Assembly (NCBI GenBank): GCA_943326765.2
Contig: CALPUN020000002.1
Coordinates: forward strand, 1 to 37,960
Length of the DNA stretch: 37,960 nucleotides
Direction: 5' to 3'
Origin: Bifidobacterium breve
GTDB taxonomy: Bacteria > Bacteroidota > Bacteroidia > Flavobacteriales > Flavobacteriaceae
Program-made: the position numbers and the translations under genes
Notes under the pieces: generated by a model
What the model was told of the DNA's origin: nothing
What the model saw: only the letters and a program-made list of their open reading frames with translations
The model's database searches: none
In this document: piece after piece, positions 4,370 to 22,300 of the stretch
Layout: each line of letters opens with the position of its first letter
Numbering within the stretch: the first letter of the stretch is position 1

Positions 4370-4383
4370 ATGACTTTAGTCAT
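4370..4383. promoter_or_regulatory. FNR/CRP-type operator (ATGACTTTAGTCAT)
   Basis: 6-bp inverted arms ATGACT/AGTCAT; TGAC-N4-GTCA core. TAATTTTG (4405-4412) follows with 28.5 nt from box centre to its first base. Confidence 0.65.
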
Positions 4384-4412: not shown

Positions 4413-4476
4413 TACCCCAAAGTCGTAATTGTTACTAATAACAGCACTTACAAGCTTAAAACATTATAAATCAATT

Positions 4477-5067
4477 ATGCAAATAGATTTAGATTTACTC
4501 TTTACTTGGGGAGCCATCGCTAAAGAATATAAAAAAGGGGAAATGATTTTTTGTGAAGATGAAATGGCGAATTTTTATTTTCAAATTATTGAAGGAAGTA
4601 TCAGGATGTTCAATTCAAATGATGAGGGAAAAGAATTTACACAGGGTTATTTTTCAAACGGACAAAGTTTTGGGGAGCCTCCCTTGTTTATTGATAAATT
4701 CTATCCCTCTACAGCTGTAGCATTTCAGGATAGTAAAATAATAAAACTATCCAAAGAGAAACTGTTGAAAATTTTAGAAGAATACCCGGCAATACAAAAG
4801 AAGTTTTTAAATTTAATGTGCCAGCGTATTCACTCCAAAGCCTTAACCTCTAAAGACATCATCAATCAAAAACCCGAATTCAGAATTATGGCTTTCTTGA
4901 ACGCTCACAAAAAAGGTGAAAATAATAATGATAAAGAATTGGTTCCGTTTACCCGTCAGGAAATGGCCAACTTTACAGGTTTAAGAGTGGAAACTGTTAT
5001 CAGAGCGCTATCTAAAATGAGTAAGTGCAAAAAAGTAGACATTATCAATCATAAAATATATTACTAA
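4477..5067 (+). CDS. Crp/Fnr-family transcriptional regulator
   Basis: cNMP-binding-like domain plus C-terminal HTH (FTRQEMANFTGLRVETVIRALSKM). Track start is TTG 4429; ATG at 4477 (MQIDLDLLFTWG) is more likely because the -7 element lies at 4405-4412. No FNR-type N-terminal Cys cluster. Confidence 0.9.
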   Translation: MQIDLDLLFTWGAIAKEYKKGEMIFCEDEMANFYFQIIEGSIRMFNSNDEGKEFTQGYFSNGQSFGEPPLFIDKFYPSTAVAFQDSKIIKLSKEKLLKILEEYPAIQKKFLNLMCQRIHSKALTSKDIINQKPEFRIMAFLNAHKKGENNNDKELVPFTRQEMANFTGLRVETVIRALSKMSKCKKVDIINHKIYY

Positions 5068-6302
5068 TGAACTTTAACAGTAAGTTTTGGTTAAAATTCT
5101 CACTCCTAAATCTGCTGATTGTTGCCCTACTGGGGCTTTTAATGCGTTACAAAATAGGTTTCGAATTTCCCTATTTTAATCAAAAAAGTCTCCAAAATTC
5201 GCATTCGCATTTTGCTTTTTCCGGTTGGATTAGCCATACCTTAATGGTTTTAATGATTGCCTATCTCAATAAAAAAAGCAACTCCCCTATCGATTTAAAA
5301 AAATACAATTTCATCCTTGCTGCCAATTTAATTTGTTCCTATGGCATGCTAGTCTCTTTTATCCTTCAGGGTTATGGTGCCTTTTCTATTGCTTTTTCTT
5401 CGGCATCCATTTTCGTTTCCTATGCTTTTGGTTACTATTACATAAAGCAGTTGAAACAATTACCCTCCGATGATTTGTCTAAAAAATGGTTTGCCGCCGC
5501 TATTTTTTTTAATATCATCTCCTCTTTAGGCACCTTTTTCTTAGTCTATATGTTGATTACCCGAACCATTCATGAAGAAGAATATTTAGCTTCCATTTTT
5601 TATTACTTGCATTTTCAATACAACGGCTGGTTCTTCTTTGCCTCTATGGGTTTATTGTATGGGTTTTTAAACTTAAAAAAAGCAGACCATTCCTTTTTCG
5701 ACACTACATTTAAATTATTTTTCTTTTCGTGCCTACCAGCATACTTTCTATCCACTTTATGGGCTAATTTGCCCTTTTGGGTATATGTGCTAACAGTAAT
5801 AGCAGCCTTTTTGCAGGTAGTTGCTTGGTATACATTTTTAATTATTATAGTTAAAACTAAAAAAGAATACCTGACCAACTTTCCCTATTTTTTGCGTTAT
5901 ATTTTGCTTTTTGTTGCCTTTGCCGTAAGTGTCAAAGTGGTATTGCAATTAGTCTCTACCATACCATCGGTGAGTAAATTAGCTTTTGGTTTCAGACCCA
6001 TAGTTATTGCCTATTTACACTTAGTATTATTAGCTATTATCAGCTTATTTTTGTTGTTTTATATTTATGCCCATCATTTAATTCACAGCAACAAAAGAAT
6101 CAAATTAGGGGTGCTTATTTTCTCTGTTGGAGTGCTACTTAATGAAATTATTTTGGCAGTACAAGGCATCGCTTCTTTTAGTTATACCGTAATTCCCTAT
6201 GTCAACGAGCTGCTTTTAGGCGCTGCCATTGTCCTGGTCACCGGAATAGGGCTGACCGCTTTTTACTCTATAAAAAAAGTTAAAATAGCTATTAATTTAT
6301 GA
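5067..6302 (+). CDS. Polytopic membrane protein, possibly a divergent heme-copper-oxidase subunit I-like protein
   Basis: 411 aa, about 12 hydrophobic segments; His motifs NSHSHFAFSGWISH, YYLHFQYNGW and RPIVIAYLHLVLL; TAATG stop/start overlap with the regulator gene. Confidence 0.6.
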   Translation: MNFNSKFWLKFSLLNLLIVALLGLLMRYKIGFEFPYFNQKSLQNSHSHFAFSGWISHTLMVLMIAYLNKKSNSPIDLKKYNFILAANLICSYGMLVSFILQGYGAFSIAFSSASIFVSYAFGYYYIKQLKQLPSDDLSKKWFAAAIFFNIISSLGTFFLVYMLITRTIHEEEYLASIFYYLHFQYNGWFFFASMGLLYGFLNLKKADHSFFDTTFKLFFFSCLPAYFLSTLWANLPFWVYVLTVIAAFLQVVAWYTFLIIIVKTKKEYLTNFPYFLRYILLFVAFAVSVKVVLQLVSTIPSVSKLAFGFRPIVIAYLHLVLLAIISLFLLFYIYAHHLIHSNKRIKLGVLIFSVGVLLNEIILAVQGIASFSYTVIPYVNELLLGAAIVLVTGIGLTAFYSIKKVKIAINL

Positions 6303-6368: not shown

Positions 6369-6923
6369 ATGAAAAAATCAATTAAATTAGTATTACTAGT
6401 AGGTCTGATCTCTTTTTTTGGATGCAAAAAAACAGACGAAGCTACTCCGGCAGCTACAACTGAAAATACGGAAACAAAAGCGGCAGGGCAAGAAGGAGTT
6501 GTTGATGACACTTCTGCAAGAAATGTGGTTCAAACTGCCATTGGGAGTAAAGACCATACAACATTAGTTGCCGCGGTAAAAGCAGCCGATTTGGTTACAG
6601 CCTTAAGTAATGCTGGACCATTTACTGTTTTTGCACCAACAAATGCTGCTTTCGATAAACTTCCGAAAGGAACTGTGGACGATTTATTAAAACCGGAAAA
6701 CAAAGAAAAATTGACTAACATTCTAGGATATCACACTTATGTTGGTTCCCTTAAAACGGAGTACATGCAGGATGGACAAGAATTTGACATGGTCTTTGGC
6801 GGTAAAGTTAAAATCACTAAAAAAGGAGATAAAACATTTGTCAATGGTTCTGAAATAGTAGCTTCTATACCCACATCAAACGGTATCATTCATGTAATTG
6901 GAGATGTACTTTTACCAAAATAA
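6369..6923 (+). CDS. Fasciclin-domain lipoprotein
   Basis: Lipobox FFGC; FAS1 motifs (VAAVKAADLVTALSNAGPFTVFAPTNAAFDKLPKGTVDDLL...LTNILGYHTYVG...NGIIHVIGDVLLPK). Confidence 0.92.
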   Translation: MKKSIKLVLLVGLISFFGCKKTDEATPAATTENTETKAAGQEGVVDDTSARNVVQTAIGSKDHTTLVAAVKAADLVTALSNAGPFTVFAPTNAAFDKLPKGTVDDLLKPENKEKLTNILGYHTYVGSLKTEYMQDGQEFDMVFGGKVKITKKGDKTFVNGSEIVASIPTSNGIIHVIGDVLLPK

Positions 6924-7003: not shown

Positions 7004-7017
7004 AGGATTACAATCCT
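7004..7017. promoter_or_regulatory. Variant FNR-type palindrome AGGATTACAATCCT before the norC-like gene
   Basis: 6-bp arms with 2-nt spacer; shares GATTnnAATC with the boxes at 12573 and 22287. An imperfect -7 (TCTATTTG, 7039-7046) lies 28.5 nt from the box centre. Confidence 0.4.
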
Positions 7018-7071
7018 GTTTTTTTATTGTCAAAAGATTCTATTTGTACTGTTTCATCAAGTAATTTTTTA

Positions 7072-7506
7072 ATGAATCCATCCTTAAAATATAGTGCGAT
7101 ACTCTCCACATTAATCGTAGTATTTGTGACTTACAATGCACTACTTTACACCTCAGACAAAGCCTACGGCACTATTCATTTATCAAAAAAAGCGCAGCAA
7201 GGCGAAAGTCTTTGGTTGCTAAACAACTGTAATTCCTGTCACCAACTCTATGGTTTGGGAGGTTATCTTGGACCAGATCTTACCAATGAATACTCAAGAA
7301 CACACAATGAAAAATTCCTAAAAGCAATATTCAACAGTGGCATAAAAACCATGCCTCGATTTAATTTCAACGAATCTGAAAGTAATGCTTTGATTCAGTT
7401 TCTGAAAGAAGTTGACCAAACAGGTTACTCCCCTAACCGAGCTACTAAAATAGAATCGAACGGATGGGTAACTCTCAAATATAAAAGCCTTCCCAATGAA
7501 AAATAA
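7072..7506 (+). CDS. Membrane-anchored c-type cytochrome, NorC-like
   Basis: N-terminal TM segment, one heme motif CNSCH, downstream Met (KTMPRFNFNESESNALIQFLKEVD). Track start TTG 7027; ATG 7072 (MNPSLKYSAIL) more likely. Overlaps the NorB-like ORF. Confidence 0.82.
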   Translation: MNPSLKYSAILSTLIVVFVTYNALLYTSDKAYGTIHLSKKAQQGESLWLLNNCNSCHQLYGLGGYLGPDLTNEYSRTHNEKFLKAIFNSGIKTMPRFNFNESESNALIQFLKEVDQTGYSPNRATKIESNGWVTLKYKSLPNEK

Positions 7507-8830
7507 CCGTTACCCTTTTTATTTTATCGCTGTGGGTTTAGTTTCATTATTACTAGGGATCCTTTGTGGTTTATTAGCTGGTTTGCAATATATCCTCCCT
7601 GATTTTATAAAATCGCTTTTGCCCTTTAATGCGCTAAGGCCGTTACATACTTTGTTTGTCGTTTCCTGGATTTTATTGTCTTCCATTGGCGGAATTTATT
7701 ATTATCTCAACCTCAACTTTATAGAAAAAAAAGTAAATCCAAAACTCATCCCGCTGCATTTTTGGATATTTATTATTACCGGAATAGGAATTAGTAGCTG
7801 TTATCTCTTTGGATATTTTGGCGGAAAAGAATATCTAGAATTTCCGTTCTATTTCTATTTCCCTATAATGTTAGGGTGGATACTGTTTGGAATTGTTTTT
7901 TTTAAAACCACTAGTGCTGCTTTTAAAACTTGGCCAGTATACTATTGGATGTGGGGTACCGGTATTGTATTTATGATATATCATTTCACCGAAGCCCATC
8001 TTTGGTTACTACCTTATTTCAAAGGTCATTTTATTCAAAATATAGCCCTGCAATGGAAAGCAGGTGGTTCGTATGTTGGTTCTTGGAATATGCTGGTTTA
8101 CGGCACTTCCTTATACGTCATTTCAAAGATTAGTAAGGATGATCGTTACGCCAACTCCAAGAAAGCTTTCTTCTTTTATTTTCTAGGGTTGACCAATCTG
8201 ATGTTCGGCTGGGCGCACCATATTTACATTATTCCAACAGCTCCGTGGATAAGATATGTAGCGTATGCCATTAGTATGACCGAATGGATAATACTTTTTT
8301 CCATCTTATACGACTGGAAGAAAAATTTAAGTAAAGAAACAATTACCAACTACCCATTAGCCTATCGGTTTATGAAACTGGCTAATTTTTGGGTGCTCCT
8401 AAACATTGTTTTAGCCCTATTCATTTCTATTCCTTCTATAAATTTATTCACACACGGAACACACATAACCGTAGCACATTCTATGGGAACTACTATAGGG
8501 ATAAACACGTTGATTCTGCTGTCCTCCGTGACTTATATTTTAGAATCGGCAAACCTAATTTCCATTGTAGCAACTAGCAAAATACAATGGAACCTTCGCT
8601 TTTTTAATAGTGCTTTTATGGGATTTTGGATGACCCTATTGGTATTGGGAGCCAAAAAAGGCTATTGGACCTACTTTTGCCAACAAATTTCCTTTGGTGA
8701 ATTTCAGGATTCACTGCACGGAATTTACATTTTGTTTATTTTCTTTGGAATAGGAATGGCAATAGGCTTGTATGAAATTGTTTTTGAATTACTCAAAATC
8801 TTAAAAAATCCGCTAAAAGTCAATCTCTAA
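7496..8830 (+). CDS. NorB-like heme-copper oxidase superfamily protein with atypical ligand positions
   Basis: 444 aa, about 12 TM; RPLHTLFVVSWILLSSIGG (helix II), GWAHHIYIIPTAPW (helix VII), FTHGTHITVAHSMGTTIG (helix X); paired with a NorC-like cytochrome. Confidence 0.78.
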   Translation: MKNNRYPFYFIAVGLVSLLLGILCGLLAGLQYILPDFIKSLLPFNALRPLHTLFVVSWILLSSIGGIYYYLNLNFIEKKVNPKLIPLHFWIFIITGIGISSCYLFGYFGGKEYLEFPFYFYFPIMLGWILFGIVFFKTTSAAFKTWPVYYWMWGTGIVFMIYHFTEAHLWLLPYFKGHFIQNIALQWKAGGSYVGSWNMLVYGTSLYVISKISKDDRYANSKKAFFFYFLGLTNLMFGWAHHIYIIPTAPWIRYVAYAISMTEWIILFSILYDWKKNLSKETITNYPLAYRFMKLANFWVLLNIVLALFISIPSINLFTHGTHITVAHSMGTTIGINTLILLSSVTYILESANLISIVATSKIQWNLRFFNSAFMGFWMTLLVLGAKKGYWTYFCQQISFGEFQDSLHGIYILFIFFGIGMAIGLYEIVFELLKILKNPLKVNL

Positions 8831-11767: not shown

Positions 11768-12520
11768 TTAATGTAATGAATCTACTAGTTTGTCTAAAAT
11801 GGTAAATTGTTGCTCTAGTTCATGTGCTCCCGGAAAAAGGATATTGTTTTCTAGATGAATGTGTTTGTGTAAATCTGCTTCAAACTCTTTGAGCATGGCA
11901 AAAGTTACTTTATACGTTTCACAAGCGTCGGTTGGTGGGGTATAGTTATGGGTCAACTCAGCTATCTTAGCAAATCGTTCTCCTTCTATACTATGCTCAT
12001 TCCGCATCATGGCAATCGGGTTATCTATGGTTCCAAAATGAGGAACCGCGATAGCTTGATTTGTTCTTTGGGCAATTACCATCTTTTTAATAAACGGAAA
12101 CAATATCAATTCTTCCTTTTTCATATGCTTGGCCAATTCTCCTGCTCCAGCAATAAATAGTTTATTAATCTCCAAAAGCTCCGGATGTCTGCCTCCGTGC
12201 ACTTTACCAAGTTTGTCCAAAAACATATAGAGCACTGACGATTTTTCCTCTACATACCGATGGTGTTTTTTTTCGATATAATCCACTAATAAATCAAGTG
12301 ACCAGGATTTAAAATCTATAGTTTGATCATTTGCCGTATTTAGAATAGCATTAATTTCTTTTTCTAACACTGCAGAACTAATCGCTTTCTTTTCACAGGC
12401 TTCTACTAAAGTTCGGTTGCCTTTACAACAAAAGTCGATTCCATATTTTGAAAATAATGCGGCTGTCCTGAAATCATTTGCTACGTAGTCGCCTATTGTC
12501 TTTTTATTTATTGTTTCCAT
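11768..12520 (-). CDS. ric: Iron-sulfur cluster repair di-iron protein (Ric/ScdA/YtfE family)
   Basis: N-terminal DUF542 signature (TIGDYVANDFRTAALFSKYGIDFCCKGNRTLVEAC) and hemerythrin-like His/Glu pattern. Confidence 0.93.
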   Translation of the reverse strand: METINKKTIGDYVANDFRTAALFSKYGIDFCCKGNRTLVEACEKKAISSAVLEKEINAILNTANDQTIDFKSWSLDLLVDYIEKKHHRYVEEKSSVLYMFLDKLGKVHGGRHPELLEINKLFIAGAGELAKHMKKEELILFPFIKKMVIAQRTNQAIAVPHFGTIDNPIAMMRNEHSIEGERFAKIAELTHNYTPPTDACETYKVTFAMLKEFEADLHKHIHLENNILFPGAHELEQQFTILDKLVDSLH

Positions 12521-12572: not shown

Positions 12573-12592
12573 TATATGATTTAAATCATATA
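12573..12592. promoter_or_regulatory. Perfect 20-bp palindrome TATATGATTTAAATCATATA (FNR-type operator)
   Basis: Perfect inverted repeat; its inner 14 bp ATGATTTAAATCAT are identical to the site at 22287-22300; TGAT-N4-ATCA is the FNR core. Between divergent ric and nadA. Confidence 0.75.
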
Positions 12593-12682: not shown

Positions 12683-13615
12683 ATGCAAGCCCTTAAAGAA
12701 AAAATATTGGCACTGAAAAAAGTCAAAAATGCTATGATTTTGGCACATTTTTATCAGGAACCCGATATACAGGAAATAGCCGATTATGTGGGGGATAGTT
12801 TGGGGCTATCTCAGCAAGCCGCCAAAGCAAATGCCGCTATCATTTTGTTTGCTGGTGTACATTTCATGGCAGAAACAGCTAAAATTCTGAATCCAAGCAA
12901 AAAAGTAATACTTCCTGATTTAGCTGCGGGTTGCTCACTAGCAGAATCCTGTCCTCCAGAAATTTTTAAAAAATTTATTGAAGCACACCCAGATCATATA
13001 GTAATAACTTATGTGAATTGCTCGGCTGAGATTAAAGCTATGAGTCACTTGGTTTGTACTTCTTCCAATGCAGTTAAAATAGTGTCTTCCGTGCCAAAAA
13101 ACATTCCGATAATTTTTGCGCCCGATAAAAACCTAGGGCGTTATATTGAACAAGAAACGGGAAGAAAAATGGTACTCTGGGATGGCTCTTGTGTAGTGCA
13201 CGAAGCCTTTTCTTTAGACAAGCTAATTGCGCTCCATAAAAAATACCCAAACGCCAAAATCATTGCACATCCAGAATCAGAAGCACCTATCTTAGAAACT
13301 GCTACTTATATTGGTTCCACATCCGGTATGATTGATTTTGTAAAAAACAATCCCGCTAATGAGTTTATTGTAGCGACCGAAGCAGGTATACTTTATAAAA
13401 TGCAACAAGAAGTTCCCGATAAACTATTGATACCGGCACCATCCGTTGAAAATAACACTTGTGCCTGTAGTGAATGTGGCTTTATGAAAATGAATACACT
13501 ACAGAAAGTATACGATTGTTTACTAAATGAAAAACCCGAAATCAAAGTCTCAAAAGAAATTAGAAAAAAAGCCTTACTCCCTATTGAACGCATGCTTGAA
13601 TTATCACACTACTGA
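12683..13615 (+). CDS. nadA: Quinolinate synthase
   Basis: 310 aa; [81 protein letters not shown]. Confidence 0.96.
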
Positions 13616-15144
13616 TGCCTACCCATTATTTAATCATTGGCTCGGGAATAGCCGGACTTACTTTTGCCCTGAAAATTGCAGAAAAATTTCCGGAAAGGTC
13701 TGTTGCCATAGTTACAAAATCGGCAGCAGAAGAATCAAATACCAAATATGCCCAAGGCGGAATTGCCGTGGTGCAAAACCATCAGGGGGATACTTTTCAA
13801 AAACATATCGAAGATACGCTTATTTGTGGAGACGGATTATGCGATAAAGCGGTGGTTGAAATGGTAATTGCGGAAGGACCTAAACGCTTACAGGAACTGA
13901 TCGATTGGGGAGCACATTTTGATATCACTGCTGATGGAAACCTTGATGTTGGTCGAGAAGGCGGCCATTCAAAAAACCGTGTGGTGCACCATAAAGACCA
14001 AACCGGTTATGAAATTGAACGAGCCATTTTACTTCAGGTTAGGAAAATGAGCAATATTACGTTGTATGATTTTCATTTTGCATTAGAATTAATAACGCTG
14101 AACAATAAATGTCTTGGGGCTTATGTTCTTGAAGAACAAACCAACAAAATAGTACCCTTTAAATCAAACTTCACAGTACTGGCCACGGGTGGTATTGGGC
14201 AACTTTACGGTCACACTACCAATCCGGCTATAGCTACCGGTGATGGAATTGCGATGGCCAATAGAGCTGATGCTTGTATTAAAGACATCGAATTTATTCA
14301 GTTTCATCCCACTGCTTTATACAATAAAAGTTTAAGTACTACTTTTTTAATTTCGGAGGCCGTTCGTGGTTTTGGTGCTTGCTTAAGAACCAAAGATGGT
14401 CGTCAATTTATGCAAGAGTATGATGCAAGAGGTGATTTGGCCTCCAGAGATATCGTGTCTCAAAGTATAGCAACCGAATTGAAAAAATCGGGCGAAACTT
14501 GTGTTTACTTGGACGGTACTCATTTAAACATCACCGCATTTAGGGAACACTTTCCTATGATTTATAACAATTGTAAACTCTTGAATATTGACATTAAAAA
14601 AGATTGGATTCCGGTGATTCCGGCACAACATTATTTGTGTGGTGGCATTTCGGTGGATATTCATGGGCAAACTTCTATAGAAAACTTATATGCCTGTGGT
14701 GAATGCTCCCGAACTGGATTGCACGGCGCAAATCGTTTGGCTTCCAATTCGTTATTAGAAGCTTTAGTTTATGCAGATAACATTTACCAGTTCCTTGTTG
14801 ATGCGCCCATAAACAATTCAGAAACAAACCTTACGATTTCGGAATGGAAATCCAATTGCGGTTCGTTAATAAACATTGATCTTTTGATGAAAATAAAATC
14901 CGAATTACAATTGTTAATGCAAAGAAATGCGGGAATAGTCAGAAATGACACTGATTTGTTACAAGCACAAATGCAACTTGAAAATTGGAAAAATCAAATT
15001 GCTAGTTTGGAAAAACAGCACCAAATCAATAAAGAGTTTTATGAATTAAAAAACATGATAACCATTGGTATTCTCATCGTAGAAGAATCTATTCAAAGAA
15101 AAGAAAATCGGGGTGGATTTGTAAAAGAGTCACCCTTTTTATAG
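13615..15144 (+). CDS. nadB: L-aspartate oxidase
   Basis: FAD-binding GSGIAGLTFALKIAE, KYAQGGIAVV, EGGHSKNRVVHHKDQTG, EFIQFHPTALY, CGECSRTGLHGANRLASNSLLEALVYA; TGATG overlap with nadA. Confidence 0.96.
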   Translation: MPTHYLIIGSGIAGLTFALKIAEKFPERSVAIVTKSAAEESNTKYAQGGIAVVQNHQGDTFQKHIEDTLICGDGLCDKAVVEMVIAEGPKRLQELIDWGAHFDITADGNLDVGREGGHSKNRVVHHKDQTGYEIERAILLQVRKMSNITLYDFHFALELITLNNKCLGAYVLEEQTNKIVPFKSNFTVLATGGIGQLYGHTTNPAIATGDGIAMANRADACIKDIEFIQFHPTALYNKSLSTTFLISEAVRGFGACLRTKDGRQFMQEYDARGDLASRDIVSQSIATELKKSGETCVYLDGTHLNITAFREHFPMIYNNCKLLNIDIKKDWIPVIPAQHYLCGGISVDIHGQTSIENLYACGECSRTGLHGANRLASNSLLEALVYADNIYQFLVDAPINNSETNLTISEWKSNCGSLINIDLLMKIKSELQLLMQRNAGIVRNDTDLLQAQMQLENWKNQIASLEKQHQINKEFYELKNMITIGILIVEESIQRKENRGGFVKESPFL

Positions 15145-15955: not shown

Positions 15956-16723
15956 TTATAAATCTTTACTATTGAACTTTCTAAGCGAAATGAAAAAAGG
16001 AAGAATTACCCACAAACTAAGCAATAAGAAAGAAACTATCAATCCTACTGTAGTGCCGAAAAAGTCTTTGAAAATAGCACCCGTATAGCCCATCATCGCC
16101 GAAACATCAAGATGCAACAGTATTTGAATGCGGGCTAAGTCAATGGGACTCATTGCAGTGACACCAACCATAGCATTTTCTATGGGATAATCGGAAAACT
16201 GAAATAATAAAAACAATACCATTCCATCAAACAATAAGGCAAAATACAACCAAGTCATTATTGCAATTCCGATTCCTTTTGCTTTATCCCGAGTCATGAT
16301 AGAACTAAGGAAAGCTAAAGCTACAAACACCACCGAAATTAAACATCCCACAACAAGCATCATCAGTCCTACTCCATCCGGAGAATTAATCAACAAAGGA
16401 ATTCCAGCACCCACAAAAAAGGATACTACCATCGCCAACGAAAGCCCGAAAAACAAACTCAACCATATCTTTCTTCTCTTAATAGGCTGACTCAACAATA
16501 GTTCAATAAACTCCGAACTATTATATAAGTAAATCGTTGAAAACAATATTGAAACCAAAGGAACGGTAAACAAAATCACATTCAATATGGTCAGTATTCC
16601 TTTGGCAGAATTGTCTTCTAGTGCAAAAGAACTCCAGGCCAAAACAGCCAAAATAAGCGTATAGGCCAATACAATTTTGTTCTTGAGTATGTCGAGCAAA
16701 ATAATTTTAACGATTCGGTTCAT
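15956..16723 (-). CDS. nosY: ABC transporter permease NosY
   Basis: Six-TM permease (ABC-2 type), start overlaps nosF end, in a nosZ-L-D-F-Y order. Confidence 0.88.
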   Translation of the reverse strand: MNRIVKIILLDILKNKIVLAYTLILAVLAWSSFALEDNSAKGILTILNVILFTVPLVSILFSTIYLYNSSEFIELLLSQPIKRRKIWLSLFFGLSLAMVVSFFVGAGIPLLINSPDGVGLMMLVVGCLISVVFVALAFLSSIMTRDKAKGIGIAIMTWLYFALLFDGMVLFLLFQFSDYPIENAMVGVTAMSPIDLARIQILLHLDVSAMMGYTGAIFKDFFGTTVGLIVSFLLLSLWVILPFFISLRKFNSKDL

Positions 16724-17429
16724 CTTTGTTTTTCTTTAATATTTGAGCAATAGCTTTGGATATTTTATCTTCTCCGGTTTCAGATTTTAGAAGTGCTACT
16801 TTTTTATGAAAAAAGACCTTTCCGTCCTGCATAAAAATAATTTCGGTAATCAAATCATCCAATTCGCTCAACAAGTGAGATGTGATAAAAATAAGCTTGC
16901 CTTTTTCTTTTTCATTTATGATTTTCTCTTTTAGAATTTCGGAAGCCAACGGATCTAAACCAGCTGTAGGTTCGTCTAATATTAAAACATCCGGATTAAA
17001 CAAAAAAGCCAGAACAGCACTGACCTTTTGGGTGGTTCCCCCTGATAAGGTTCTCATTTTTTTGTCGAACATTTTTTCGAGTTCAAAAGCTTTCAGCAAA
17101 TCTTCATCTAATTCATTGGTTGTATTTCTGATTTTTTTGATCATATCGATAATTTGACCAATAGTCATATTATCCGGATAGCGCCCAATCTGGGGCATAT
17201 AGCCTATTTTTTCGCGGTACAAATATTCTTTAAAAATTGTTTTTCCATCAAACGAGATTGAGCCTTTATCGGGCAAAACCATCCCTAAAATTGATTTTAT
17301 CAGGGTAGTTTTCCCGCAACCATTTGGTCCAATTAGAGCTATACATTCTCCTTTTTTACAAGAAAGATTGATATTAGAGAGTACTTCAAGTTTACCAAAC
17401 TTTTTATTAATATTTATTATTTCAATCAT
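16707..17429 (-). CDS. nosF: ABC transporter ATPase NosF
   Basis: Walker A GPNGCGKTT, LSGGTTQKV signature, Walker B VLILDEPTAGLDP; overlaps nosD. Confidence 0.92.
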   Translation of the reverse strand: MIEIININKKFGKLEVLSNINLSCKKGECIALIGPNGCGKTTLIKSILGMVLPDKGSISFDGKTIFKEYLYREKIGYMPQIGRYPDNMTIGQIIDMIKKIRNTTNELDEDLLKAFELEKMFDKKMRTLSGGTTQKVSAVLAFLFNPDVLILDEPTAGLDPLASEILKEKIINEKEKGKLIFITSHLLSELDDLITEIIFMQDGKVFFHKKVALLKSETGEDKISKAIAQILKKNKDEPNR

Positions 17430-18661
17430 AGCGGTAGCGACTTCATTAAGGGCGTTTTATCTATAAAATTATCAGGCGTGATACTGGGCAATACTTTTTC
17501 AGATTTGTCCAAAAGGGTAATCATAAAACTGCGATAAAGCAACATGGTGGAAGCATTTTTTTCAGTCAAAACAGCAAATAAACTCAACGGATGATAAGGA
17601 ACATCCCCAACTCCGTTTTTATCCAAATCATACCCTTCGTATTTATCCCAATAATTGCTGTTAAAAGTGTTCAAAACCAAACTGCCATTGGTACTAATAT
17701 CAAAAGTGTTTTTGAGATAATTATTGCTTACGATTTCATTATCCATACAACTGGCTTGTACTTTCAAGCCCCAACCATTAGAGATAAAATTATTTTTTTC
17801 AATTTTAATACGAGTCGTTCCTTCCATATAAATGGCCGAAGTGTTTTTGAGAAACTTATTGTTAAAAATATAGCCGTCCGAGATTTCTTTCAGCAATAAA
17901 CCATAAGCGGAATCGCCCCAATTTTCTTCAAATGTATTGTTAAACATTTTGACACTTTTAGAGAACATCACGGCGACACCTGCACCATTGTTTTTAAACA
18001 AATTAGTAATATAAGAATCATCATTGGAAAACATAAAATGCAAACCGTAACGAATGTTTTTAGTGGAAATATTTCTCCAAATCACCGAATTCGTAACAAA
18101 CTCAAAATAAATACCGTCCCGATGTCCCGAAACCGTATTGGCAATAATTTGCAGGTTATCACTTTTCCAGCAATGAATTCCGTTGCCTATAAGCTGTTCC
18201 TGCGTGCCGTATGATACGATGGTGTTTCCTTTAACGATACAGTTATTACAATTTTGAAGATAAATGCCAAAGAAATTATTATCAAGACAATTGTTGTAGA
18301 TTCTCACAAAAGTTCGATTGTATACTTTAATGCCGCAAGGATCATCTAATGCCGCAAAGCCCGAGTTAATAATTTTAAAACCTTTAACTACAACACTATC
18401 CGCCTTTACAGATAACACTTCTCCCTGTTTTTGAGCGTCTAAAACGGGGAATTCTTTCCCTAAAAAAACTATCTTTTTATTGATTACAATGTTTCCTTCT
18501 CTATACAATCCTGAGTGAACAATAATCGTATCGCCATTTTTAGATTGTGCAATAGCTTGATGAATACTCTTCACGGGATAGTGCTTTCCAACAGGAATAG
18601 TATTAGCAATCAAGACTTGAAAAGTAAAAAAGAAATAGCTTATATAGCAGAGTTGTTTCAT
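17426..18661 (-). CDS. nosD: Periplasmic copper-binding/maturation protein NosD (beta-helix)
   Basis: Signal peptide, repeated right-handed beta-helix pattern (NNFFGIYLQNCNNCIVKGNTIV...HRDGIYFEFVTNSVI...). Confidence 0.93.
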   Translation of the reverse strand: MKQLCYISYFFFTFQVLIANTIPVGKHYPVKSIHQAIAQSKNGDTIIVHSGLYREGNIVINKKIVFLGKEFPVLDAQKQGEVLSVKADSVVVKGFKIINSGFAALDDPCGIKVYNRTFVRIYNNCLDNNFFGIYLQNCNNCIVKGNTIVSYGTQEQLIGNGIHCWKSDNLQIIANTVSGHRDGIYFEFVTNSVIWRNISTKNIRYGLHFMFSNDDSYITNLFKNNGAGVAVMFSKSVKMFNNTFEENWGDSAYGLLLKEISDGYIFNNKFLKNTSAIYMEGTTRIKIEKNNFISNGWGLKVQASCMDNEIVSNNYLKNTFDISTNGSLVLNTFNSNYWDKYEGYDLDKNGVGDVPYHPLSLFAVLTEKNASTMLLYRSFMITLLDKSEKVLPSITPDNFIDKTPLMKSLPL

Positions 18662-19090
18662 TTAGTAACTACTATAAAGTTCTTTCCATGATAATAGGGC
18701 TGCATTGAATTTTGGTTGATAGCGTTCCGCTTCTTTTTTTGAAGCAAAAGCAATCGCATTCCCATTCATCGGACTATTGATAGTGCCTCCTTTCAAAAAA
18801 TAGCATTTTTCAACGGAAATGAGTGTATTATCCATCAAATAGTCACAAACAAAAAAGGCTTTATAGGGAACCACTGTATTGGATTTCGCAAAATGAATTA
18901 GGCAGGCAACATCATCAAATTTATAATACCGCCCTTTTTCTGTAATGAGTTCGGCTCCAAATTGTCCGTTGGCGATGGTCATTTTACAAAAATCACAAGC
19001 ATCGGAATTGAACTGTAAAGGTTTAGGTTCTCCTGACATACAGGAAATAAGAACTAAAGAGGCAAATAATAAAAAGACAGCTTTTTTCAT
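18662..19090 (-). CDS. nosL: NosL copper chaperone lipoprotein
   Basis: Lipobox LISC; CDFCKMTIANGQFGAELITEKGRYYKFDDVACLIHF. Confidence 0.93.
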   Translation of the reverse strand: MKKAVFLLFASLVLISCMSGEPKPLQFNSDACDFCKMTIANGQFGAELITEKGRYYKFDDVACLIHFAKSNTVVPYKAFFVCDYLMDNTLISVEKCYFLKGGTINSPMNGNAIAFASKKEAERYQPKFNAALLSWKELYSSY

Positions 19091-19097
19091 TTGAATA

Positions 19098-19682
19098 TTA
19101 TTTTTTTTGTACTAAATGGTATTCTTTTACCACTATAAATAAAAGTAAAACTGCAGCTCCAGTCAACAACCAACCTCCGGTATCTGGAATAGAATAAGCT
19201 CCAAAATTCAGTAGCTGTTTGTATCCTAATAATGGTGGTTGATAAGCCATACCAGGCACTTTAATCGCTGCATTAGGATCTAAGTTATGTCCGTATTCAT
19301 AATTCCAACGGTAAAAATCAACGGCAGCGGAGAGTATAAAAACTACATAAGTAATTAAAAATAGCTTTACTCCTTTTCGTTTACCTATAAAAACCAAAAG
19401 CAGAGAAACTAAAGCAAATAGTCCAAAAACAACGGGAAGTATTTTAAATTCCGGGAAGTTTTCATCATGTAGGGTTGCCATACCAATATAATGGTTCAAA
19501 CCATTGATAATGGCTACATCACCCCCTATTTTATTAGCAAACAATTGCAATACCAGCCCTTCAGGATATTGAGGTGCTTGCAATTCTATTCGCCACATCG
19601 GCACAAACTGTGCACCTGCAAAGAGTGCAGAGACGATCAAAAGTAAGACTTTCGAAAGCAAGGAAATTTTTTGAGTTTTCAT
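19098..19682 (-). CDS. NosB-like polytopic membrane protein of a clade II nos cluster
   Basis: 194 aa, N-terminal TM, loop with NKIGGDVAIINGLNHYIGM, three further TMs; directly downstream of nosZ, where nosB lies in clade II clusters. Confidence 0.65.
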   Translation of the reverse strand: MKTQKISLLSKVLLLIVSALFAGAQFVPMWRIELQAPQYPEGLVLQLFANKIGGDVAIINGLNHYIGMATLHDENFPEFKILPVVFGLFALVSLLLVFIGKRKGVKLFLITYVVFILSAAVDFYRWNYEYGHNLDPNAAIKVPGMAYQPPLLGYKQLLNFGAYSIPDTGGWLLTGAAVLLLFIVVKEYHLVQKK

Positions 19683-19694
19683 AATTGAAAAATA

Positions 19695-19722
19695 AAAGGA
19701 GCAACTTTTAAATTGCTCCTTT
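19695..19722 (-). terminator. Stem-loop between nosZ and the nosB-like gene
   Basis: AAAGGAGCAA-(8 nt)-TTGCTCCTTT perfect 10-bp arms; minus-strand 3' side continues TATTTTTC. Confidence 0.65.
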
Positions 19723-19735
19723 GATGAATGGGTGT

Positions 19736-21718
19736 CTATTTTTTGTCAGGAGCTGGTAAATTGGTTCCTAAACTATAGGTTAAAGGTACGGAGCTACCCT
19801 TTGGAGACACTCGGACATATCCTTGCATTTCTTGGTGCAACGCACTACAAAAATCGGTGCAATAGAATGGAACAATTCCAACTCTATCGGGAGTCCATTT
19901 TAGAGTGGTAGTTTCACCTGGCATAATTAACAATTCGGAAGTATTGGCACCTTTAATTCCAAATCCATGAGGTACATCCCAATCTTGTTCTAGGTTGGTT
20001 ATGTGAAAATATACTTCGTCACCCAATTTAATTCCTTCAATATTATCTGGAGAAAAGTGAGAACGAATGCAGGTCATAGAGACATCTACACGGTTTCCGT
20101 TACGAACTACTTTGGTTTCTTTTTCGCCTTTAGAAACAAAGGGATGGTGGTTGTCTTCTAATTTATAGAATTTCAATTGACCGTTGTTTCGAATTAAATC
20201 AGCAGGAGCAGCTTGTGCATAATGCGGTTCTCCAATGGTAGGAAAATCTAATATTAATTGCATTTTATCACCACTAATATCATAAATTTGAGCCGATTGC
20301 GCTAACTCAGGACCTGTTGGTAAATAACGATCTTTGGTGATTTTATTATATGCGATTAAGTATTTTCCAAAAGGTTTTTTAGAATCTCCTCCAGGAATAC
20401 ATAAGTGACCTACAGAATAATACGTTGGAACTCTATCCAATACTTTCAAAGATTTGATATCCCATTTTACTACTTCAGAAGAAACGAACATGGTGGTATA
20501 AGCATTTCCTTTTCCGTCAAACTCCGTGTGCAAAGGTCCTAAACCTGGTTTTTGAACTTCTCCATGAAGAGCAGCTTCGTATTTAATTACCGGAATACCA
20601 TCATATTCTCCTTCAAATTGTTTGGTTTTAATAGCATTCATTAATTTGTCAAAACTAAATACCGGAATTAAAGCAGCCAATTTCCCTGAACCTACAATGT
20701 ATTCTCCTGTTGGATCTACATCACAGCCGTGGGGTGATTTTGGACAAGGAATCATATAACAAATATCTTTTAATTCTTTAGAATCTAGAATAAGTACTTT
20801 TGTTTTAATTTCAGAAGTTGCAGAATGTGTTTTTTCATCATATACATTATGAGCATATCTTGTTGAAGTTAATTTTCCTTTTCCAGCTTTGATATATTCT
20901 TCTGCTTTTTTCCAATTGACCGCCATAATAAAATCTTTGTCTTTTTGAGAAGCATTAACTTCTAACAAGGTATTGGCTTGTTCGGTGTTATAGCAAGAGA
21001 AGAAAAACCACCCGTGTGATTTTCCTTTACCGGCATGAGATAAATCAAAATTTACTCCCGGGCATTGTATTTGGAAAGCAATATCCATTTGGCCTTCTTT
21101 CTCTACTTTCACAAAGCTTAAATGTCCTTTAAAATTTTGTTTATAAGTGTTGATTGGCACGTCTCCATTGGCGTTATCTGGTGGAACGCTAAAACGAGTT
21201 CCGGCTACTACATACTCCGTATTTTCGGTAATGAAAGGAGACGAGTGATTACCGGCACTATTAGGTAACTCAATAATTTCTTTTGTAGTAAATGTTTTCA
21301 AATCCAAACGAGCAATCCGTGGCGTATTATTGGCATTAGCAAAAAGCCAACGACCATCAACTTCACCATTTGTTTGAGAAAGTTCGGTATGGTGTTGGTC
21401 ATCCCAAGGCACAAAACCATGTGATGTATTTAACATCGGTTTGGTTTCTTCACTAAAACCATAACCGCTTTCTGGATCAGCAGAAAATACTGGAATTACT
21501 CTTAATAATCTTCCGCTTGGAAGACCATAAACGCTAACTTGACCACTAAAACCTCCTGATACGAAGTTATAGAATTCGTCATATTTTCCTGGCGCAACAT
21601 AGGCTTTCTGAGCAGCATCGCCACTCACAGCATCACTAGAATTTTTTGGTTTACAGGAGGTGAATAACGCACTTCCTAGTACAATAGCAAAAATTGCTTT
21701 TAAAAATTTATTTTTCAT
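19736..21718 (-). CDS. nosZ: Nitrous oxide reductase, clade II-like, predicted lipoprotein
   Basis: 660 aa; CuA motif YCTDFCSALHQEMQGYV, DDQHHTE, GHLCIPGGD, SPHGCDVDPTGEYIVGSGK; Sec-type N-terminus with lipobox ALFTSC and no twin-arginine. Confidence 0.97.
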   Translation of the reverse strand: MKNKFLKAIFAIVLGSALFTSCKPKNSSDAVSGDAAQKAYVAPGKYDEFYNFVSGGFSGQVSVYGLPSGRLLRVIPVFSADPESGYGFSEETKPMLNTSHGFVPWDDQHHTELSQTNGEVDGRWLFANANNTPRIARLDLKTFTTKEIIELPNSAGNHSSPFITENTEYVVAGTRFSVPPDNANGDVPINTYKQNFKGHLSFVKVEKEGQMDIAFQIQCPGVNFDLSHAGKGKSHGWFFFSCYNTEQANTLLEVNASQKDKDFIMAVNWKKAEEYIKAGKGKLTSTRYAHNVYDEKTHSATSEIKTKVLILDSKELKDICYMIPCPKSPHGCDVDPTGEYIVGSGKLAALIPVFSFDKLMNAIKTKQFEGEYDGIPVIKYEAALHGEVQKPGLGPLHTEFDGKGNAYTTMFVSSEVVKWDIKSLKVLDRVPTYYSVGHLCIPGGDSKKPFGKYLIAYNKITKDRYLPTGPELAQSAQIYDISGDKMQLILDFPTIGEPHYAQAAPADLIRNNGQLKFYKLEDNHHPFVSKGEKETKVVRNGNRVDVSMTCIRSHFSPDNIEGIKLGDEVYFHITNLEQDWDVPHGFGIKGANTSELLIMPGETTTLKWTPDRVGIVPFYCTDFCSALHQEMQGYVRVSPKGSSVPLTYSLGTNLPAPDKK

Positions 21719-21721
21719 GAT

Positions 21722-21760
21722 TTATTTTCTTTTGAATTTATTTTCTTTTGAATTTATTTT
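21722..21760. repeat. 16-bp tandem repeat, about 2.4 copies (TTATTTTCTTTTGAAT)
   Basis: Two exact 16-bp units plus TTATTTT; overlaps the cytochrome stop codon and the nosZ leader. Confidence 0.9.
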
Positions 21761-22230
21761 ACGCCGTCATTTTTACGCATATATTCTAATACACTTCTAG
21801 CTTCGGTATCATTTAATCCTTGGTTTGGCATACGAACCAAGCAAATTTCAAGAGCAGCTTGCATTTTTGGATCTTTTGTAATCATTGGATCCGGATTGGT
21901 GATGAAGTTCATAATCCATTCTGGTTGGTGACGAGAAATTACGCCTTTCCATCCCGGTCCAACTAATTTCTCATCGGTAGGTTTATGACAGGATGTGCAT
22001 TTTACACCAGCTATTTTTTCTCCTTCAGTAGCCATGGCTTGATCTAAAGTTGCTCCTAAATCTACTTTGTCAAATTTTCCTTCACCCCTATTTGGGTCAT
22101 AGGAAGAAGGATCTGCTGCGGTAGTTGTTTCATTGCCACCTGGCTTTGAAAAATCGGTATCTGAATTTTCTTTTTTACCACAAGCAGTAAACATTGCCAG
22201 TGATAAGATTAGTAATAATAATTTGTTCAT
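21754..22230 (-). CDS. Monoheme c-type cytochrome lipoprotein, first gene of the nos operon
   Basis: Lipobox FTAC; heme motif CTSCH; downstream Met in LVRMPNQGLNDTEARSVLEYMRK. Confidence 0.9.
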   Translation of the reverse strand: MNKLLLLILSLAMFTACGKKENSDTDFSKPGGNETTTAADPSSYDPNRGEGKFDKVDLGATLDQAMATEGEKIAGVKCTSCHKPTDEKLVGPGWKGVISRHQPEWIMNFITNPDPMITKDPKMQAALEICLVRMPNQGLNDTEARSVLEYMRKNDGVK

Positions 22231-22286: not shown

Positions 22287-22300
22287 ATGATTTAAATCAT
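22287..22300. promoter_or_regulatory. FNR-type operator ATGATTTAAATCAT upstream of the nos operon
   Basis: Perfect 14-bp palindrome identical to the core of the ric/nadA palindrome at 12573-12592. Confidence 0.75.

Follow-up and report, generated by a model that had tools for sequence, protein, structure and literature searches.

The published nitric oxide reductase (NOR) classes comprise cNOR and qNOR, which belong to the C-family, and bNOR, eNOR, sNOR, gNOR and nNOR of the B-family, the latter five being related to B-family oxygen reductases (PMC11388526). The heme-copper oxidoreductase (HCO) superfamily has six invariant histidines, one in helix II, one in helix VI, and two each in helices VII and X. 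In cNOR, which has a NorC cytochrome c subunit, FeB is held by three His and a Glu, and loss of FeB or of its Glu inactivates the canonical enzymes (PMC13036017; E494A in AxqNOR, PMC7201271). NorQ and NorD are both essential for FeB insertion into the cNOR of P. denitrificans, and the FeB-less enzyme is inactive (PMC9976466, PMC13036017). The NorB surface residues D220 and E222 form a docking pair required for the action of NorQD, and qNOR needs no NorQD (PMC9976466). Among Bacteroidota genomes with denitrification genes, 9% have nir and nosZ and no nor, in a dataset from which curation dropped Nor sequences lacking ligand residues (PMC12569097).

The gene pair analysed here lies at 7072-8830 of a 37,960-nucleotide stretch of DNA (the window), whose source is a Flavobacterium-type genome bearing a two-gene NorCB-like respiratory complex. 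To our estimate the chances are about even that the pair is a NorCB-type respiratory complex of an unrecognised C-family lineage, most likely consuming NO (2 NO to N2O) in Bacteroidota at low oxygen or in the presence of NO, with a second metal site that is not a canonical FeB.

The NorCB-Like Gene Pair

The pair consists of two genes:
7072-7506, forward strand: NorC-like membrane-anchored mono-heme cytochrome c, with CNSCH and the axial Met of TMPRF (sequence, 3o0r_C match, homologues)
7496-8830, forward strand: NorB-like subunit of C-family heme-copper fold with substituted ligands (open reading frame, Pfam, phmmer, alignments, Foldseek, tree)

The NorB-like frame runs from an ATG through to a stop and encodes 444 aa, the opposite strand carrying many stops over the same interval; all motifs quoted in the initial annotation are present in the product. 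The protein scores 98.6 bits against Pfam COX1 (cut-off 34.8) and has the 12-TM COX1 fold of HCO subunit I. A phmmer search of the PDB returns NorB matches only (4xyd_A, 1.5e-11; 3o0r_B, 3e-10), and a profile built from 46 homologues ranks NorB first (1e-25), ahead of cbb3 CcoN and qNOR. An AlphaFold2 model, built with the family alignment as input, reaches a pLDDT of 85.9 and a pTM of 0.90, and its top Foldseek match in the PDB is 3o0r_B, the NorB of cNOR (TM 0.85, TMq).

The NorC-like gene is located directly upstream and overlaps the NorB-like gene by 11 nt, an overlap found in 36 of 73 loci. Its product has a single N-terminal hydrophobic stretch, a CNSCH motif and a Met axial ligand, and matches 3o0r_C (E 7e-9), in agreement with the proposed pairing with a NorC-like cytochrome. 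CxxCH and Met109 are invariant in the 73 NorC-like loci and homologues, and comparison with homologues makes the ATG at 7072 the more likely start, over the TTG at 7027.

Substituted Ligand Positions

Ligands were mapped by phmmer and hmmsearch to 4xyd_A, 3o0r_B and 8smr_E, by hhalign to flavobacterial NorB, and by a joint MAFFT alignment with cNOR, qNOR and CcoN. These alignments place the following residues, all on the forward strand:
7646-7648: H51, helix II ligand of the low-spin heme b, kept
8057-8059: K188, invariant family-specific Lys about one turn ahead of the lost helix VI His
8066-8068: G191, invariant Gly where NorB has the helix VI His, H207
8087-8089: N198, invariant Asn where NorB has E215
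8216-8221: H241-H242, helix VII pair, kept
8282-8284: E263, counterpart of NorB E280, kept
8477-8485: H328-S-M330, the heme b3 proximal His being kept and the second His replaced by an invariant Met

Four of the six invariant His of the superfamily are therefore in place, as independent alignments give H51, H241/H242 and H328 where the helix II His, the helix VII pair and the first helix X His had been read by eye. The two remaining positions are Gly (helix VI) and Met (the second in helix X). H207 of NorB falls on G191 (190 in the NorB-only alignment), with no His in either version, and in the joint alignment the helix VI His of cNOR, qNOR and CcoN all align to G191, which bears out the loss of a third non-heme ligand. 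The FeB-ligating E211 of NorB aligns to V194/G195 or a gap, and E215 corresponds to N198. The initial annotation, which held that the catalytic Glu was missing, was right as far as these two residues go, but overlooked E263, the equivalent of P. aeruginosa NorB E280 (the third functional, or second-sphere, Glu), which is retained. At the second helix X position, where NorB has a low-spin heme ligand, M330 is found; ligation of this heme by H51 and M330, also proposed earlier, would be the simplest reading of the invariant Met. Among membrane-bound respiratory enzymes, heme b558 of cytochrome bd, a protein of unrelated fold, is a precedent for His/Met ligation of heme b.

G191, N198, H241, H242, E263, H320, H328 and M330 are invariant in 46 aligned homologues, and so are the family-specific E166, W187, K188 and Y202. 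About 80 homologues in all, which come from Bacteroidota and a few Proteobacteria MAGs and show 44-78% identity, likewise keep G191, N198, H241, H242, H328 and M330; for Gly191 and Met330 the sole exception in the 83-row table appears to be an outlier, the genome's own CcoN. The substitutions also hold, wherever covered, in eight more sequences from later searches. With dN at 0.16-0.23 and dS saturated, the family is under strong purifying selection. Substitutions fixed in about 80 homologues under such selection represent neither decay nor sequencing error, and a frame or sequencing error in the window is ruled out by the same conservation. Two family copies are interrupted, one by what looks like a frameshift close to the 3' end (L050) and one by an in-range stop (L017), possibly as assembly errors or recent losses.

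Other placements of the ligands were considered, and were rejected or judged less likely. A shifted helix VI alignment would have to use H163 or H168, which sit in the V-VI loop and vary, and the cbb3-based and NorB-based alignments both leave helix VI without a His. H323 is a less likely substitute low-spin ligand, lying five residues from H328 and near the helix N-terminus; low AlphaFold2 confidence at residues 315-325 tempers this judgement. No alignment examined restores the helix VI His or the second helix X His.

Relationship to Known Oxidases and Reductases

A tree limited to the NorB-like family, cNOR, qNOR and CcoN recovers the NorB-like family as monophyletic (100/100). The cNORs are monophyletic (97.6/100) and join qNOR (99.6/100), while CcoN and a CcoN-like protein are set apart (100/100). 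This support makes the NorB-like family a separate C-family lineage, outside cNOR, qNOR and cbb3. The CcoN-like protein (L110, G441:C8; 484 aa) branches apart from CcoN and carries VSKTD instead of SHYTD ahead of helix X.

With cNOR (3o0r of P. aeruginosa, 4xyd of R. denitrificans) the pair shares the fold, the NorC partner, the His of helix II, the HH of helix VII, the b3 His and the E280 equivalent, as well as the periplasmic GRE(F/Y)LE motif and the THGT motif ahead of helix X. It differs from cNOR in lacking the helix VI His and the FeB Glu, in having Asn for E215 and Met for the low-spin His, in its separate clade, and in having no NorD association of its own; NorQ and NorD do not belong to the operon. 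With qNOR it shares the C-family fold, the helix VII pair and the E280-equivalent Glu, but the NorB-like protein has lost FeB ligands, is far shorter than the about 750 aa of qNOR and NOD, has no fused N-terminal cytochrome-like domain, and lies outside the qNOR clade in this tree of the family, cNOR, qNOR and CcoN. The V-VI loop and the 'VQW' start of helix VI resemble cbb3 CcoN, as does the fold. In contrast to CcoN, however, the helix VI His among the CuB ligands, the Tyr at the cross-link position and the second helix X His are absent, the partner is NorC and not CcoO/CcoP, and the score against NCBIfam TIGR00780 (ccoN) is 31.7 bits for a cut-off of 583.

The B-family NORs, compared here by description, have in common with the pair the idea of a NOR with an altered active-site residue; unlike them, the NorB-like protein groups with the C-family, is partnered by a cytochrome c and has lost metal ligands. 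All its close sequence relatives, as judged by PDB searches and by the tree with cNOR, qNOR and CcoN, are C-family proteins. Its ligand set is absent from the NOR classes of PMC11388526 and from the active-site residue table of PMC8756737. In the open-access literature we found neither an earlier description of the family nor a characterised NOR subfamily with the same ligands.

Distribution and Co-occurrence

The pair is sparse, occurring in 8 of the 151 genomes of the taxonomic family. A phylum sample of 395 gives nine matches, one of which (G441) is the CcoN-like protein and not a member. NosZ is encoded by 8/8 carriers and 67/143 non-carriers in the family sample (Fisher p 0.003), so that 67 of the 75 NosZ-positive genomes there are without the pair. 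Over 55 carrier genomes, NosZ is found in 46, canonical cNorB in 26, NirK in 22 and NirS in 5. Most carriers without cNOR are also without Nir, and 17 of the 55 have NosZ and none of NirK, NirS, cNOR or qNOR; these include the genome of the window, whose COX1-family members are caa3, cbb3 and the NorB-like protein only.

Nir occurs without a full-length cNOR or any qNOR in five carriers. Three of them are the Proteobacteria MAGs G196, G198 and G199, of which G196 has a truncated match where a contig ends; the other two are G024, which is 99% complete, and G175. In both of the latter, nirK, the pair and nosZ share a single contig and span about 32-36 kb, in the order nirK ... cbb3 ... 411-aa protein - scdA ... 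nadAB - pair - nos operon. The contig lacks norB, norQ and norD, and neither genome has a cNOR or qNOR, the two kinds of NO-consuming enzyme that the search covered there. The two genomes probably belong to the same genus (Aequorivita) and are thus not independent cases. At loci L076, L078 and L079, Proteobacteria MAGs carry divergent family members in NirS-positive, NosZ-negative genomes, which suggests horizontal transfer or mis-binning.

NorD is present in exactly the 26 carriers with canonical NorB (26/26) and in 0/29 of the remaining carriers, and hence tracks NorB and not the NorB-like protein. In the region aligned to D220/E222, the family does not keep the acidic pair. Independence of NorD would be expected of an altered second site; the argument is not decisive, because qNOR functions without NorQD. 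A 2025 paper reportedly also refers, by its title, to cNORs lacking chaperones.

Neighbourhood and Regulation

The genes found repeatedly around the pair in 81 loci are those for NadA/NadB and ScdA, for regulators of the Rrf2 and CRP families and for an uncharacterised 12-TM protein, together with nos genes and genes for anaerobic ribonucleotide reductase, hemerythrins and truncated globin; in a subset, NorQ/NorD/NorE and canonical NorB are also neighbours. The window contains the following related features:
4429-5067, forward strand: CRP/FNR-family regulator (profile matches; CRP/FNR-type box at 4371)
7005-7016, no strand assigned: dyad GGAT-TACA-ATCC where relatives carry the CRP/FNR-type box, diverged in this genome (sequence)
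11768-12520, reverse strand: ScdA/RIC-type di-iron protein for repair of nitrosative damage (profile match; CRP/FNR-type box at 12577)
15956-22230, reverse strand: Sec-type (clade II) nos cluster with cytochrome c, NosZ (19736-21718), NosB-like, NosL, NosD, NosF and NosY (box at 22288)

The CRP/FNR-type box TGAY-N4-RTCA lies upstream of 28/72 operons, in most cases at the same distance; 20 mononucleotide shuffles yielded 0-4. It is found at three places in the window: at 4371 ahead of crp, at 12577 ahead of scdA/nadA and at 22288 ahead of the nos operon. A window scan with TTGAY-N4-RTCAA gives no excess over chance, and the shorter box is informative only across loci.

Proposed Function and Alternatives

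Among the three roles originally suggested, that of an unusual NOR or NO-consuming enzyme is favoured. The most likely substrate would be NO, because of the regulation, the neighbours and the nirK-pair-nosZ islands. Electrons would enter from a periplasmic cytochrome c via heme c of the NorC-like subunit, and pass to low-spin heme b on H51 and probably M330, and on to high-spin heme b3 on H328, where NO would bind. At the second site only H241/H242 are left, with E263, N198 and K188 as conserved polar residues predicted nearby. This site may hold a metal on two His, perhaps with help from E263 or N198; alternatively it may be empty of metal, K188 lying close to the position left free. The protons may be drawn from the periplasm, given that the GRE(F/Y)LE motif retains E112 and mostly also E115. 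About half of the carriers also have a canonical cNOR, so the pair is often not the only NOR.

A more specific version, which we put forward tentatively and with less confidence, is that of a natural NOR class that works without canonical FeB, its place being taken by a metal on two His or by an amine (K188, for example), and whose low-spin heme is ligated by His and Met; such a class would supply the 'missing nor' step in some nir- and nosZ-bearing Bacteroidota without a recognised nor. The ligand-residue filter of the survey cited above (PMC12569097) means that the family may have been excluded there, making it a concrete candidate for part of that gap. If the pair reduces NO, such genomes, and nosZ-only 'terminators' like that of the window, are misclassified, and predictions of N2O sources and sinks are affected. 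A NorCB-type complex without two FeB ligands and with a swapped heme ligand also represents a natural experiment on the active-site needs of HCOs.

The loss of FeB ligands, the repair and detoxification genes nearby (ScdA, globin, hemerythrin) and the many carriers without Nir would also suit an NO-binding or NO-detoxifying heme protein that carries out another reaction, such as slow scavenging or turnover of another small N-oxide at heme b3, in place of respiratory 2 NO to N2O. The NorC-type electron subunit is nevertheless retained throughout, and nirK-pair-nosZ islands occur without another cNOR or qNOR, leaving this alternative unlikely.

Still less probable is a module for electron transfer or regulation that turns over no substrate, for example one supplying NosZ or another periplasmic acceptor; the non-catalytic role is possible, but falls behind NO consumption. 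The pair is associated with NosZ, and electron transfer at high potential would fit with a heme b on His and Met. An obligatory electron donor to NosZ is, however, made less plausible by the 67/75 NosZ-positive genomes of the family sample that do without the pair, and carriers from Chryseobacterium and Crocinitomicaceae (G160, G173, G162) have NirK and NOR but no NosZ. A pure conduit would also have no need of the b3 His and the helix VII pair, which are invariant.

NO dismutases (NOD; 2 NO to N2 + O2), relatives of qNOR of about 750 aa that are understood to derive from it, probably have altered FeB ligands, a feature that the NorB-like protein would share. A NOD-like activity is nonetheless very improbable for a 444-aa protein of a lineage separate from qNOR (in the tree of the family, cNOR, qNOR and CcoN) and with an invariant electron-donor subunit, which dismutation does not need. 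That the pair is a functionless degenerate cNOR paralogue or an assembly artefact, as loss of ligands essential in cNOR might suggest, is hardly credible, being contradicted by conservation across about 80 genomes, by the dN and dS values and by the maintained two-gene operon.

Other Conserved Features of the Locus

Two further genes precede the pair, both recurrent neighbours:
5067-6302, forward strand: uncharacterised 411-aa 12-TM protein with predicted heme-copper fold (AlphaFold2 model, loci comparison)
6369-6923, forward strand: fasciclin-domain lipoprotein (profile match, loci comparison)

Searches of Pfam, NCBIfam and PDB sequences give no match to the 411-aa protein. Its AlphaFold2 model (pLDDT 88, pTM 0.90) resembles HCO subunit I (cbb3/NorB; TM about 0.77), and H46 and H182 are invariant, H48 and H318 nearly so. 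It may be a second, cryptic protein of HCO fold in the same NO/anaerobic neighbourhood as the pair. The fasciclin-domain protein stands before the NorC-like gene in the window; in other genomes it also separates nosZ from the accompanying cytochrome c gene (L114:14091-14666). The nadA-nadB genes (12683-15144, forward strand), beside a CRP/FNR-type box, lie near the pair in about half of all loci, and NAD synthesis appears to be tied to the anaerobic/NO regulon. A truncated globin gene lies just downstream of the complete nos cluster, and members of a family of about 600 aa with no Pfam or NCBIfam match (L024:2098-3900 and related) adjoin the operon in about 22 loci.
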